Source of the DNA: Terriglobia bacterium
GTDB taxonomy: Bacteria > Acidobacteriota > Terriglobia > JAIQFV01
Direction of reading: 5' to 3'
Assembly: GCA_028716525.1 (NCBI GenBank)
Contig: JAQUPQ010000018.1
Location: forward strand, 1 to 64,000
DNA: 64,000 nucleotides
The position numbers and the translations under genes were made by a program. This document shows, in pieces, positions 43,696 through 50,590 of this stretch; within the stretch, counting starts at the first letter, position 1; each line of letters begins with the position of its first letter. The notes under the pieces are model-generated. The model was not told where the DNA came from. It worked only from the letters and a program-made list of their open reading frames with translations, and made no database searches.

Positions 43696-45693
43696 ATGGC
43701 TCTCATGCGATTTAAAAATCGGCAATGGCTGTTTGTGTTCGCCGCAGTGATGCTCCTGCCCGTGACGGCATGGGCTAAAGATCCCGAAGACACTCGCGGC
43801 CGGATCGACGTCAAGAACTATGTGGTGGATGCCAAGTTTGATGCCGCCTCTCACCAACTGGAAGCGAAGGTCAAAATGCAAGTGGTGGCGCGGGAGTCCG
43901 CGATCTCGGACCTCGATTTGAATTTCAATGGCAACCTGACCCCGACCCGTGTGGTAGATTCGCGAAACCGCACGCTGCGTTACAGCCAGGACGTGGATGC
44001 TTCCAAATTGCGCGTCGAATTGACCAATCCATTGGATAAGTCTCAGGAGGAATCCATCACGATTGAATACCACGGAGTTTTGGAACGTGCCGATCGCAGC
44101 CCGGTTGAGGATGTCCTGTTGGCCAAGGTCGGAGACTCTTCCGGCTATTTCCTGGCGCGATCCTATTGGCTTCCGATGAATGGTTACAACTTCAACCGCG
44201 CCTCCATCCAACTGAACATGACCGTGCCCAGCGGCTTGACCGCGGTCTCGCAAGGGAGATTGCGCGGCGTGGACAAAGGATCAGCGGAGGACGTCTACCA
44301 CTGGCAGACCGATGCTCAGGATTTTCCTCTCACCGTAGCGGTTGGAAAATATGTCGAAACGAAGGTGCCGACAGAATCCATTCCGGTCGTGATGTATTTG
44401 AATGCCTCGGAGGCCGGTTTGGCCAAGTCCTATGGCGAAATGGCCGGCAAGATCATTGATTTCTACACCCGCAAATTCTCGCTATTTCCGTTCGCGGGTT
44501 TGACGATTGCGGAAATTGATGACACCACCTTGGGGGGATATGCGGCCCCGGGCTTGGTTCTGTTGTCCCATCGCGGACTGACGGCCAAGGTGAATTACCG
44601 ATTGTTGGCTCACGAGATTGCCCAGCAATGGTGGGGCCTGAGGATGAGCCCCAAGTTCAAGAGCGACGACTGGTTGAGAGAAGGATTTGCGGCTTATTCC
44701 GCGGCCCTGTTTATTGAGGATTATGCCGGTACGGGCGCTTATGAGGATGAGATGAAGGACATCGGCGTCCGCGCGCTGACTCACGAAGACGCGGGGTCAA
44801 TCTCCAATGCTTCCCGATTGACCGAAGAGACCAATGAATACCGGTCCGTCGTGGAATACAAGGGCGCCTTTGTGCTTCATATGCTCCGCTCCGTGGTTGG
44901 AGATGACAAGTTCTTCAAAATTATCCAAACGGTTGCTACTAAATATGCCTATCAGCCCGTGACGACAGCCGATTTCAAATCGGTCGCCGAGCAAGTCACC
45001 GCCCAGGATTTGACGTACTTTTTTGCGGAGTGGGTCCTTTCGACCGGGGCCCCCGATTTTCGATTGAAATACACGGTGTATCGAACTCAGAAAGGTTTCC
45101 GGGTCCAAGGGCACGTCGAACAGGACATGGACACTCTACGAATGCCGGTGGAAGTCAAAGTGGAAACCCAAGGGAAACCGGAAAGCAAGACAGTGGAAGT
45201 CATCGGGACGAGCTCGGATTTTGAAATCAGCACTTTCGGTCAACCCGTTCGCATCGAATTGGATCCCAACCATCGTCTATTGCGTTATGACGACAAAATC
45301 AAGATCCTGGTGGCCATTCAACGCGGCAAGGATTTGTTTGATCAAGGCGAGTATGTGGAGGCCATTGAGGCTTACCGCAAAGCATTGGACTTGGACAAGC
45401 ACAATTCACTCGCCCAGTATCGCATCGCCGAGGCGTTCTTCGCCCAGCACAATTACAATTCGGCGGCCAACGCCTATCGTGAAGCGCTCAACGGGGATTT
45501 GGAACCGAAATGGATCGAAGTCTTCTGCCACTTGCAGCTCGGGAAGGTTTACGATGCTTTGGGTCAGCGTGAACGCGCCTTGGCCGAGTATCGCCGTGCC
45601 ATCGACTCCAACGACAACACCCAAGGGGCCGTCGACGAGGCCAGAAAATATCAGGCTTCTCCTTACAAAGAGCCCAAGACCGATTTTCGTTAG
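43696..45693 (+). CDS. M1 aminopeptidase-like exported protein with altered zinc site and TPRs
   Basis: The 665-residue precursor has a signal peptide (LFVFAAVMLLPVTAWAK) and a gluzincin-type domain. The expected HExxH-x18-E reads H306-E307-I-A-Q-Q310-W with E329 in WLREGF: the second zinc His is replaced by Gln. The GAMEN exopeptidase loop is also absent (LGGYAAPG). Residues about 540-650 hold three TPR-like repeats (DLFDQGEYVEAIEAYRKALD). Likely a non-catalytic relative or an enzyme with a changed metal site, in the periplasm. No frameshift is present, so it seems maintained. Confidence 0.82.
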   Translation: MALMRFKNRQWLFVFAAVMLLPVTAWAKDPEDTRGRIDVKNYVVDAKFDAASHQLEAKVKMQVVARESAISDLDLNFNGNLTPTRVVDSRNRTLRYSQDVDASKLRVELTNPLDKSQEESITIEYHGVLERADRSPVEDVLLAKVGDSSGYFLARSYWLPMNGYNFNRASIQLNMTVPSGLTAVSQGRLRGVDKGSAEDVYHWQTDAQDFPLTVAVGKYVETKVPTESIPVVMYLNASEAGLAKSYGEMAGKIIDFYTRKFSLFPFAGLTIAEIDDTTLGGYAAPGLVLLSHRGLTAKVNYRLLAHEIAQQWWGLRMSPKFKSDDWLREGFAAYSAALFIEDYAGTGAYEDEMKDIGVRALTHEDAGSISNASRLTEETNEYRSVVEYKGAFVLHMLRSVVGDDKFFKIIQTVATKYAYQPVTTADFKSVAEQVTAQDLTYFFAEWVLSTGAPDFRLKYTVYRTQKGFRVQGHVEQDMDTLRMPVEVKVETQGKPESKTVEVIGTSSDFEISTFGQPVRIELDPNHRLLRYDDKIKILVAIQRGKDLFDQGEYVEAIEAYRKALDLDKHNSLAQYRIAEAFFAQHNYNSAANAYREALNGDLEPKWIEVFCHLQLGKVYDALGQRERALAEYRRAIDSNDNTQGAVDEARKYQASPYKEPKTDFR

Positions 45694-47131: not shown

Positions 47132-49342
47132 TTAATCCAAAGGTTCAAAAACAAACCACGATTCCACGCGGCTCTGGCGCAACGTGATTCCAAGGCCCCG
47201 GTCGAAATCCACCAGGCTTTCGCGCGAACCCGGCAGAACGATGCGCACCGAAGATTGGGTGCGGGACGCCAGTGTTTTTGCCTCCAGCCCTGGAGAAAGC
47301 CGATTGGCGGAATCCGTCTGCCGGTACGTGCCGGTGGTTTGAATGAAGTCGATGGTGTCTTCGGAGCCGGATACGATGAGGCCGGGCTTGTCAAAGAGCA
47401 ACACCGAAAAGTCGAAATCCAGGGGGGTACGCAATTTCCAGATCGCGGTGGCGGGGCCGAGCTTGCGTGTCAGTGTTGAGATGCGGCTCCCGAGTTGAAG
47501 ATCCGCCAGCTGCGGAAGTTTTTCCTGGCTGTCATCCTCACGGCGCGGCCAGGGGCGATTGAGTTTGTTGTACGCCATGCGCAACCAGCCATCGCGGTCA
47601 CCGGACGAAAGATCGGCATAACGTTGGTACTCCATCCGGGCTGCCGTGACATTGTTTTTCAACTCCTGAACACGGGCTTGGTTGAAATGGGGATCGGCAA
47701 AATGCGCATCGATCTGTGCGGCCTGCCGGAAAAACTCGGAGGCTTTATCCAACTGGGATTGTTTGGCCGCAATGACGCCGAGATTATTCAAAGCTCGAGC
47801 TCTCTCCGCAGGCGTGGGCTTCAGGTTCAACACCCGTTGCAATTGCTTCCGGGCCCCTTCTTCATCGCCTTTGTCATCCAAGGCGCCCGCTAGATTAATT
47901 CCGACCGCCACGTACTGCGGGTCGCGCGCCATGGCCTGCTGATACTCGGCGATGGCTTTATCGAGATACAGCAAGAAGAGGTTATCCTTGGGCAATTCTT
48001 CTCGAATCGGCTCGATGGCTCGCGCCACGGGATCCAGAATGACGGATTTCTTGAATCCCCAGTTTTCCGGAGAATATTCCAGCGCGAACTTGTGGTAGGC
48101 CAAACCCAGATTGTTGTAGGCCTCCCGGCTCGGGAACAATTTGGATACCTGCTCGAACACCGCCACGGAGCGGCTGTATTGCTCGGTATTAAAGAAAGAA
48201 ATGCCGGCGCGGAATAAATCAATGCTCTGTTCGATGGAATTCAACTCCGAAGCGGCTTCTCCCAATCGCGCCTGGACCTCGGGATGCGAAGCATCCGAGG
48301 CCTTGGGAACCTGCTGGATTTGTTGGAAGAGGTCCCGGGCGGCATCGGCCCGAAAGCCGGCGACCGAGGCCAGAAAGACTCCCAACCGATCAGCTTGAAG
48401 TTCAATCTGTTGCTGCTGCCGCGGCAAAAGCGGGGTGGCCTGCGAATTACTGGAAAACGAGAGAATGCATTGTGCCGGATGCTCCAGGTGAGCCACCTCG
48501 TGTGCCAGCAGGAATGCCAGTTCATCGCGGTCTTGGGCCAGCGCCAAATAGCGTGTGGAAATCGTCAACTCGCCCTTCGGAGAAATCTCGGCAATGTATT
48601 GGTCTGAAGGCACCACGTTCAGTTGAATCGGCCGCCCTCGTGTCCCATCGGCCACACGCAGAATCTCCGCCAGAATTTCCTGAGCGTTCTTCACGGCGGC
48701 AGGGTCGACTTGGGGCGTCGTCGGGGAAACAGGGGCGGGAGTTCCAGTCTTGTTCCCGGCGATTTCATTGGGAGGAACCGATCTTGGGATTCGATGGTAA
48801 ATGGCGATGCCGGCCAGAAGCAGAATCACAACCGCGGCAGCCGCTCCCACCCATTGCGGCCGCAGTCCGGAACCACTCATCCATCCGAAAACACGATCCA
48901 TCAAGCCGATAGGGGCTTGACCCGGATTCCGCGCTATCTCAGCCTCACCAATGGCGCGAGCCTTGGAAAGGATAAAGGCCGGGACTTCGATGTCCGCTTG
49001 CTCAAACTCTGAAATCTCGGATTCTAAATGAAGGATGGAATTTCGACAGGAGGCACAACCCGGCAGGTGAGATTCAAACGCGCTGCGTTCCGGGGTATCC
49101 ATTCGGTCATCGAGATACGCCAGACGCACTTCATCATCAAATTTCTGTACGCATTGCTCCGAGGCCTTGTGCAGTTCATTGTAAATCGGCAGTGAAGCAG
49201 AACGTGTGGTGGCCCAAACTACCTTGATGGTGTCTTGGCAGGAAGTGCAGGAGCTCAGATGTTCCCACTCCGCGTCTGAGAGAAGACTGGAATTCTCTCC
49301 CAGCAGCCACTCTCTAATTCTTCCTTTGTCCAAGCAATTCAT
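47132..49342 (-). CDS. Zinc-finger anti-sigma-like protein fused to M48 protease and TPRs
   Basis: I start at ATG 49342 (MNCLDKGRIREWLL); GTG 49387 is an alternative. The 736-residue protein has two zf-HC2-type fingers, H28xxxC32xxC35 and H92xxxC96xxC99, then one membrane helix (about 162-180, AAAAVVILLLAGIAIY). An M48-like metalloprotease domain follows with H281-E282-VA-H285 and the third ligand in IELQADRLGVF. Five or more TPRs (about 370-620) and a C-terminal beta region complete it. zf-HC2 domains bind sigma factors, and the sigma gene lies 122 bp upstream. I infer a membrane anti-sigma factor with its own periplasmic protease. Such a fusion is unusual. Confidence 0.85.
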   Translation of the reverse strand: MNCLDKGRIREWLLGENSSLLSDAEWEHLSSCTSCQDTIKVVWATTRSASLPIYNELHKASEQCVQKFDDEVRLAYLDDRMDTPERSAFESHLPGCASCRNSILHLESEISEFEQADIEVPAFILSKARAIGEAEIARNPGQAPIGLMDRVFGWMSGSGLRPQWVGAAAAVVILLLAGIAIYHRIPRSVPPNEIAGNKTGTPAPVSPTTPQVDPAAVKNAQEILAEILRVADGTRGRPIQLNVVPSDQYIAEISPKGELTISTRYLALAQDRDELAFLLAHEVAHLEHPAQCILSFSSNSQATPLLPRQQQQIELQADRLGVFLASVAGFRADAARDLFQQIQQVPKASDASHPEVQARLGEAASELNSIEQSIDLFRAGISFFNTEQYSRSVAVFEQVSKLFPSREAYNNLGLAYHKFALEYSPENWGFKKSVILDPVARAIEPIREELPKDNLFLLYLDKAIAEYQQAMARDPQYVAVGINLAGALDDKGDEEGARKQLQRVLNLKPTPAERARALNNLGVIAAKQSQLDKASEFFRQAAQIDAHFADPHFNQARVQELKNNVTAARMEYQRYADLSSGDRDGWLRMAYNKLNRPWPRREDDSQEKLPQLADLQLGSRISTLTRKLGPATAIWKLRTPLDFDFSVLLFDKPGLIVSGSEDTIDFIQTTGTYRQTDSANRLSPGLEAKTLASRTQSSVRIVLPGSRESLVDFDRGLGITLRQSRVESWFVFEPLD

Positions 49343-49464
49343 ATACTTAGCTCGTCCGTCAAAAGGGCCCGTTGAAGCCGCTCCCACGACACGATCTTTA
49401 TCAACAAACAGCGTTTGCTGCCTGTTGCATCCCCATTAGACGGAAAGATTCTTTCATTTTTGAA

Positions 49465-50346
49465 CTACTCTCCGAAGCTATCCTTAAGAATTTGCACATC
49501 AAATCCTTGACGCCGCAATTCCTCTCCAAGCCGGTCTTTAATTTGGTTCAAAAGGGTGTAAACCTTCTCGGAGGGACGAATCTTCATTTTGAGTGCGATT
49601 TCTTTTGCTGAAAGGCCTTTGTCGAATCGCAACACAAAGAGCCGGCGCTCTTCAAAGGGAAGGGCCTCGACCAAACGGCTGAAGGCCGTGGTCAACCGTT
49701 GAAAATTTTCCTCGCGCTCCAGGCGGTTAAGAAGATTTTCCGGGTTGAGGGAGGAGTCCGGGAATTCCGGCATCAAATCTCCATCCGGCAACGTAGAGAC
49801 GGTTTGAACATTGGCCGGGTAGTCGGCCAGGACCCGGCGTTCTCTGATCTTCTGGATTCGACCGCGCATCTTGATGCTGAGCGAGTCGTGGACTTGATCC
49901 ATGGCCGCATCAATGGCGGCGTCGGTGGCTTTCTCACCGTAGGCAGATTTCATCCTGAGGGCCGCTTCTTCGAAGGAAAGATTTTCCCAAAATCGCATCT
50001 TGAACAAGCTTTGGGCAAATTCCGGGAGGCGCTTGATGCGCTCCGGCAAAGTTCTTCTTCCGAACTTGCTGCGGGTAAAATCCGACTTGAGATTTCCCAG
50101 CAAGGTGACCAGGTAGGAACTGAGCTTGCACCGAAATTTGAAGGACTTGAGCTTCTTGAAATTGTTTGCGGCCAGGGCTTCATACACGAACAAATTGAAA
50201 TCCGAGGCCATGTCGACATCATGAAACGACTTCACCGCATAGGAGTAAATGAGGCGGGCATAAGTGTCCAGAAAGATACTCCACCCCTTGTGGGGGTCTT
50301 CTTGGAGCATTTCAATGAGACGTTTGTCGTCGATTTGACTGGCCAT
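49465..50346 (-). CDS. ECF-like sigma-70 factor with duplicated region-4-like segment
   Basis: The 293-residue protein has a region 2-like N terminus (TYARLIYSYAVKSFHDVDMA; CKLSSYLVTLLGNLKSDFTR). A canonical region 4 lies at about residues 229-275 (LPFEERRLFVLRF, then LSAKEIALKMK). A second, similar segment at residues 107-133 (LPEFAQSLFKMRF, LSFEEAALRMK) matches it at 13 of 27 positions without gaps. ECF factors are normally about 170-200 residues. It probably forms a signalling pair with the zinc-finger/M48 protein. The 244 bp upstream hold no gene and may carry its own promoter. Confidence 0.85.
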   Translation of the reverse strand: MASQIDDKRLIEMLQEDPHKGWSIFLDTYARLIYSYAVKSFHDVDMASDFNLFVYEALAANNFKKLKSFKFRCKLSSYLVTLLGNLKSDFTRSKFGRRTLPERIKRLPEFAQSLFKMRFWENLSFEEAALRMKSAYGEKATDAAIDAAMDQVHDSLSIKMRGRIQKIRERRVLADYPANVQTVSTLPDGDLMPEFPDSSLNPENLLNRLEREENFQRLTTAFSRLVEALPFEERRLFVLRFDKGLSAKEIALKMKIRPSEKVYTLLNQIKDRLGEELRRQGFDVQILKDSFGE

Positions 50347-50590
50347 GATGTCGGGCGGCTGCCTGAAACGAGCCGTATTTTATAATGGATGTCGGGGGGT
50401 GACAACTGAACGGCTGCCGCGATCGTCATGCCGCACGAGTTCTTCTTTCACACTCAGGGTTGAACGTTGTGATCTAGGGAAAGAATCGAAGCTCCGCTGG
50501 AAGGATATTTTCGGTGGGGCTTCGTTCAAAATGCGTCACCATTAAACAGCGAGACCGCGACATCCCGGCGTTTTTGAATGAATTCCGAAC

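Follow-up and report, generated by a model that had tools for sequence, protein, structure and literature searches.

A zf-HC2/M48/TPR fusion protein beside an ECF-like sigma factor gene in Terriglobia: a possible anti-sigma factor with its own protease

A stretch of 64,000 nucleotides from a Terriglobia bacterium (GenBank assembly GCA_028716525.1, contig JAQUPQ010000018.1, positions 1 to 64,000; contig C18 of a 4.2-Mb draft genome), referred to here as the window, contained an extracytoplasmic function (ECF)-like sigma factor gene followed by a gene for a 736-residue fusion protein. The fusion protein was composed of two zf-HC2-type zinc fingers, a membrane helix, an M48 peptidase domain, tetratricopeptide repeats (TPRs), and a C-terminal domain. 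The host is a member of a small family in Terriglobia (Acidobacteriota). The favoured reading, to which we give a little less than an even chance, is that the protein is an anti-sigma factor with a gated, tethered, BepA-like M48 protease that would cut its own anti-sigma part, in cis or between chains. It was favoured because of the match to BepA with its plug histidine, the M50 proteases of the genome, and the precedents of RsgI and Csx29. An initial annotation had proposed self-cleavage, or an anti-sigma factor that also processes envelope proteins. That interpretation as a whole was partly supported, and self-cleavage of the fusion protein is plausible.

The fusion protein and the adjacent sigma factor

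The features of the two genes were as follows.

47132–49342, minus strand: fusion gene (736 residues; two zf-HC2 fingers, membrane helix, M48 protease, TPRs, and C-terminal domain)
49238–49336, minus strand: first zinc finger, C3...H28x3C32x2C35, a motif without a Pfam match
49046–49153, minus strand: second zinc finger, C64...H92x3C96x2C99, Pfam zf-HC2
48797–48853, minus strand: single membrane helix, residues 164–182 (hydropathy 2.38), the sole strong hydrophobic segment
48707–48796, minus strand: P/T-rich linker, residues 183–212, variable in length among orthologues
48263–48706, minus strand: M48 peptidase domain, residues 213–360 (Pfam Peptidase_M48, 38.0 bits against a cut-off of 20.3)
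48488–48502, minus strand: HEVAH zinc-binding motif, residues 281–285
48389–48403, minus strand: ELQAD, containing the third zinc ligand, E314
48284–48286, minus strand: H353 of an SHP..R motif, aligned with H246 of BepA (fourth zinc ligand and active-site plug)
47573–48226, minus strand: TPR region, residues 373–590, directly after the protease domain
47135–47521, minus strand: C-terminal domain, residues 608–736 (about 125 residues), two helix-plus-four-strand repeats in the model
49465–50346, minus strand: ECF-like sigma factor gene (293 residues; weak region 2, about residues 25–97; middle stretch, 98–165; region 4, about 212–276)

The frame described initially, with two fingers, one helix, an HEVAH-type M48 domain, and TPRs beside a sigma gene, was confirmed by the reading frames, Pfam, the invariant ligands, and hydropathy. 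The second finger exceeded the Pfam zf-HC2 cut-off (26.0 bits against 22.2, covering residues 75–100 only), whereas the first finger was recognized by its motif and invariant ligands, with no Pfam match. The finger ligands Cys3, His28, Cys32, and Cys35, and Cys64, His92, Cys96, and Cys99, were identical in all three orthologues (window, G001, and G002). The M48 residues His281, Glu282, His285, and Glu314 were likewise invariant, and the metal site looks intact, as had been assumed. The C-terminal domain, which had been overlooked, gave no Pfam match even at an E value of 10; the strand order in the model raised a suspicion of a BamE-like repeat. Similar stretches were present behind the TPRs of both split and orphan M48-TPR relatives.

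A search of 41 genomes (the host and 40 relatives) gave full-length orthologues, at 52% identity, in just two, G001 and G002, the remaining members of the family. Both orthologues were 749 residues long and began at the same point, which supports the start codon and the length of 736 residues. The fusion gene lay downstream of the sigma gene on the same strand, 122 nt from the sigma stop codon, and the same adjacency in G001 and G002 bore out the predicted anti-sigma architecture next to a sigma gene. The full-length identity of 52% and the gene order shared with two other genomes place the locus beyond chance. An assembly or frame artefact was ruled out by the same full-length frame in these genomes and by a second fusion in G322. 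In the class (299 genomes), the top-scoring match beyond the family was partial (37 bits, profile positions 75–229), and none of the matches listed from outside the family joined fingers and protease. A scan of genome_contigs with two conserved peptides, by which divergent forms would be missed, gave one full-length relative, contig JAIQFY010000010.1 of G002 (a Terriglobia metagenome-assembled genome).

The sigma protein contained region 4 (Sigma70_r4_2, 43.3 bits against a cut-off of 25.7), in agreement with the initial assignment to ECF-like sigma factors, but region 2 of the window protein was too divergent for a Pfam match. A distant homologue, P0007, matched region 2 at 7e-7, and the window protein scored 41.9 bits with TIGR02937 against a cut-off of 42.9. 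Regions 2 and 4 were separated by about 110 residues, in place of the short linker of ECF factors made of these two regions only. The intervening residues, about 98–165 (window 49850–50055, minus strand), showed a faint likeness to region 4 (E 0.0026, below the cut-off), and this kind of sigma factor may contain a second region-4-like module there. A sigma-70-type block, TTGTCA-N17-TAAAAT (50377–50405, minus strand), was located upstream of the sigma gene. It was read by eye from an alignment, with no statistic attached, in which TTGTCA-N17-TA(A/C)AAT was kept about 31 nt 5' of the sigma start in three genomes (window, L079, and L080). The block suggests a housekeeping promoter, with autoregulation not obvious.

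When profile A8 was searched against solved structures, the best match was Escherichia coli BepA (PDB code 6ait, E 7.3e-9). His353 was aligned with His246 of BepA by alignment only, and the position of His246 was counted back along the 6sar chain; a histidine occupied this plug position in five of six aligned proteins. In the accessible text of a study of BepA, His246 is a zinc ligand whose replacement seems to leave the protease deregulated (PMC7950410). An AlphaFold2 model of the full-length fusion built from three sequences was discarded (mean predicted local distance difference test score, pLDDT, 40.8). The model of residues 200–736 built from 12 sequences (pLDDT 76.7, predicted template modelling score 0.71) supports the domain order. 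Matches of this model in Foldseek and VIA-align were mostly unrelated TPR proteins. BepA was ranked tenth in Foldseek (E 1.1e-6) and was absent among the best 50 VIA-align rows; the fold search barely covered the C-terminal domain. The domain arrangement of the fusion protein may differ from that of BepA.

Fused and split loci in Acidobacteriota

The initial annotation had called for a search for zf-HC2 plus Peptidase_M48 architectures and their neighbours. The survey, which covered Acidobacteriota, gave a second fusion in G322 and split operons in G338, G326, G361, and G453. The protease search used four M48-TPR segments (A6) against 396 genomes of the phylum at a threshold of E 1e-9. Fourteen genomes matched, six of them strongly (1.5e-29 or better): the window genome, G322, G338, G326, G361, and G453. 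All six carried the M48-TPR unit inside a sigma/zf-HC2 locus, either fused (window and G322) or split (the other four). In G322, zf-HC2, helix, M48 (HELVH and EELDAD), and TPR were fused in 645 residues after a sigma gene. In G338, G326, and G361, the gene order was TPR-CHAT, sigma, a zf-HC2 protein with a membrane helix (346 residues), and M48-TPR (601 residues); the M48-TPR protein had a signal peptide, and its gene overlapped the preceding one by 4 nt. The order in G453 was sigma, a zf-HC2 protein with a membrane helix (300 residues), and M48-TPR with a signal peptide. The metal ligands and the third-ligand motif were retained across fused and split relatives. The combination was rare: the class of G322 had it in 1 of 5 genomes, that of G338 in 3 of 6, and that of G453 in 1 of 38. 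No sigma gene of this kind was present in the fetched stretches of nine weaker M48-TPR loci. A general tendency of M48 genes to adjoin such a pair was also ruled out, as none of the eight other M48 loci of the window genome (one of them without an M48-like frame by motif) had a sigma/zf-HC2 neighbour within 1.5 kb.

These homologues bear on the location of the protease, which had been placed in the periplasm. The charge around the window helix was ambiguous, with two Lys and Arg residues within 20 residues before it and three after it, and the fusion has its fingers and an internal helix where a free periplasmic protein such as BepA has a signal peptide. A positive-inside charge was, however, seen in the G322 fusion and in the split zf-HC2 proteins. 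Because of this charge and the signal peptides of the split homologues in four genomes, a periplasmic position of the protease is supported.

The sigma search used six sequences (A4) at E 1e-8, and 52 of 297 phylum genomes matched at this level or better. In total, 31 sigma genes were examined, from 20 stretches of 19 matching genomes together with the window, the two orthologues, G165, G113, G127, and L150–L153; the last four were chosen for their M48 match, so their sigma pairing was found from the protease side. A protein with an Hx3Cx2C motif and a predicted membrane helix adjoined 24 of the 31 sigma genes and started -58 to +153 nt from the sigma stop codon. The seven sigma genes lacking such a neighbour comprised one at a contig end, one fragment, and five others. 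A CHAT match was found near 15 of the 31, an M48-TPR match near eight, and both near three.

TPR-CHAT neighbours were identified by Pfam in several other sigma loci. In G471 (L130:5413–8868, minus strand), zf-HC2, a membrane helix, TPR, and CHAT were joined in one chain of 1152 residues directly after a sigma gene, with zf-HC2 and CHAT assigned by Pfam; this chain is the CHAT counterpart of the zf-HC2/M48 fusion. A caspase gene (Peptidase_C14) lay near CHAT behind the sigma/zf-HC2 pair of G553 (L128), and in G306 (L154, a weaker M48-TPR locus) the M48-TPR gene was located between caspase (Peptidase_C14) and CHAT genes. Elsewhere in two of the genomes, at L179 (G000:C9) and L181 (G001:C20), other sigma-like genes directly preceded TPR-CHAT genes; the next gene encoded a small protein, perhaps a further anti-sigma factor.

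In the tree of M48-TPR sequences, which had few rows and some long branches, the G322 fusion was grouped with the split forms (100/100), apart from the window family, and a single clade of fused forms was rejected by the approximately unbiased (AU) test (p-AU 7.9e-5). The two fusions were therefore not one inherited event without later change. The sigma tree contained 29 of the 31 genes, leaving out the L123 fragment and the second L132 gene. The window family was placed among sigma factors mostly with CHAT partners, far from those of G322 and f30 and from the second G453 sigma, and a single clade of M48-partnered sigma factors was rejected (p-AU 9.3e-8). Since the fused forms do not form one clade, fused and split states have interchanged, which is a classical sign of a functional link. 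The occurrence of the putative anti-sigma factor and the protease as neighbouring genes in related bacteria suggests that the two work together and that the anti-sigma factor might free itself by its own cut.

Proposed mechanism and rival explanations

In the proposed resting state, the sigma factor would be kept at the membrane by the N-terminal fingers, with the His353 plug closing the M48 active site, by analogy with His246 of BepA. The plug would open on an envelope signal perceived by the TPR and C-terminal domains, and the protease would then cut the linker on the periplasmic side, either in its own chain or in a neighbouring one; the P/T-rich residues 183–212 are the candidate site-1 region. 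A resident RseP-type M50 protease would then complete the release of sigma. M50 proteases were found in all three genomes of the family, and the window genome gave five matches, one of them of 215 bits, so that a site-2 protease is available. Given the split operons, it is more plausible that this protease cuts the anti-sigma factor, either in cis or in trans. A wider version is proposed tentatively: the fusion would be a one-chain device whose own M48 protease, locked by a histidine plug and controlled by TPRs, is the site-1 protease for itself, and it would be one case of a broader Acidobacteriota habit, reached more than once, of attaching a TPR-protease (M48 or CHAT, in some cases near caspase genes) to a zf-HC2 anti-sigma factor or placing it next to one.

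Several observations weigh against cleavage by the tethered protease. The orthologues found number three in all, the window protein included. No cleavage site was recognizable in the linker, which was poorly conserved in the alignment of the three. The whole-chain Foldseek fit to BepA was poor (TM-score 0.24, root-mean-square deviation 18 Å), and the G453 protein had no plug histidine at the aligned position. The targets of BepA are outer-membrane proteins and not an anti-sigma factor. A TPR-CHAT protease is also encoded in the f30 operon and might instead cut the anti-sigma factor. The split operons fit a protease acting on other envelope proteins equally well. The history behind the trees may have been one fusion with a later split, or two separate fusions.

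The main rival is a coupled sensor and effector that does not cleave itself, which we consider rather unlikely. The tethered M48-TPR part would perform BepA-like envelope quality control and report its client load to the fingers, whose hold on sigma would be altered by client binding; the split operons would merely put the protease under the control of the same sigma factor. BepA, the closest solved relative, binds the Bam complex in its TPR cavity, as far as the accessible text goes (PMC7950410). The TPR region ranked among the best conserved parts of the fusion protein, and the signal peptide of the split M48-TPR protein marks it as soluble and periplasmic, both of which fit this explanation. 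Against it, a pure effector has no need of fusion to an anti-sigma factor, and TPR-proteases recur at the same place. The membrane anti-sigma factors known so far are, moreover, usually released by proteolysis.

An improbable alternative is a genuine anti-sigma factor that other proteases cut (at site 1 a DegS-like or CHAT protease, then RseP), with M48 as a passenger or substrate-binding scaffold. The M50 genes, three TPR-CHAT genes elsewhere in the window genome, and the frequent nearness of CHAT genes to such sigma genes (15/31) would allow it. No CHAT gene, however, was present beside the window locus, and a scaffold would be free to lose the metal ligands and third-ligand motif that were kept in the window family and in the fused and split relatives. 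It is very improbable that the fingers do not bind the neighbouring sigma factor and that the protein is an unrelated adjacent membrane protease: the divergent region 2 would fit this, but the pair and its gene order were kept in three genomes, related pairs recurred in G322, G338, G326, G361, and G453, and none of the eight other M48 loci had such a neighbour within 1.5 kb.

In the window, G001, and G002, the gene order around the locus was NfeD-like, slipin-like, SPOR-like, sigma, fusion, PgsA-like, AMMECR1-like, and M1-like peptidase, with the neighbours named from their reading frames. The M1-like peptidase, which contained TPRs (window 43696–45693, plus strand), had HEIAQ in place of the HEIAH and HEIGH of the two orthologues. 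The second zinc histidine was thus lost, and the enzyme of the window species may be inactive.

Comparison with known systems

No anti-sigma factor with a built-in M48 protease was found in a literature search that left most subscription papers outside its reach and is no proof of absence. Regulated proteolysis of anti-sigma factors normally requires a separate sensor protease. If the favoured reading of a self-cutting anti-sigma factor is true, sensor, switch, and scissors would be joined in one molecule, with sigma-holding fingers and a gated protease, and the split operons would be natural controls for the fused form.

The fusion shares with class I (ASDI) zinc anti-sigma factors such as RsiW an N-terminal Hx3Cx2C motif, one helix, and a gene beside that of an ECF-like sigma factor. 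It differs from them in its two finger motifs and in the periplasmic M48-TPR protease, which replaces a short tail or sensor. With E. coli BepA/YfgC (PDB codes 6ait and 6sar) it has in common HExxH and ExxAD, downstream TPRs, and the aligned plug histidine, whereas the fusion is anchored in the inner membrane through its anti-sigma-like N-terminus and has a different TPR insert and an extra C-terminal domain.

The RsgI anti-sigma factors are cut by an autoproteolytic domain that is not known to be a metalloprotease. As described in the accessible text of PMC12203970, they cut themselves in the periplasm ahead of RseP. The RsgI/SEAL systems thus share with the fusion a transmembrane anti-sigma factor and, as proposed here, a first periplasmic cut by the same chain followed by RseP. 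RsgI, however, serves carbohydrate sensing in firmicutes. The periplasmic part of the fusion is occupied by M48, TPR, and the C-terminal domain.

The TPR-CHAT protein Csx29 cleaves the sigma inhibitor Csx30, according to the accessible text of PMC10028731. In this CASP/Craspase system (Csx29, Csx30, and CASP-sigma), a TPR-protease, a sigma inhibitor, and an ECF-like sigma factor likewise occur together, but the protease is CHAT and not M48, the proteins are separate, activation is by RNA with Cas7-11, and the same text shows no role for a membrane helix. The Acidobacteriota loci with sigma, a zf-HC2 protein with a membrane helix, and TPR-CHAT (G165, G113, G436, G306, and others) have a related sigma factor, the same kind of partner, and a TPR-protease. 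They differ from the fusion in their caspase-like CHAT protease, mostly encoded by a separate gene, and in the fn3-like or other periplasmic domain of the zinc-finger protein. The recurring set of sigma factor, zf-HC2 protein, and TPR-protease, in which CHAT and M48 are exchangeable, suggests a chromosomal counterpart to the CRISPR-linked logic of Csx29, Csx30, and CASP-sigma.

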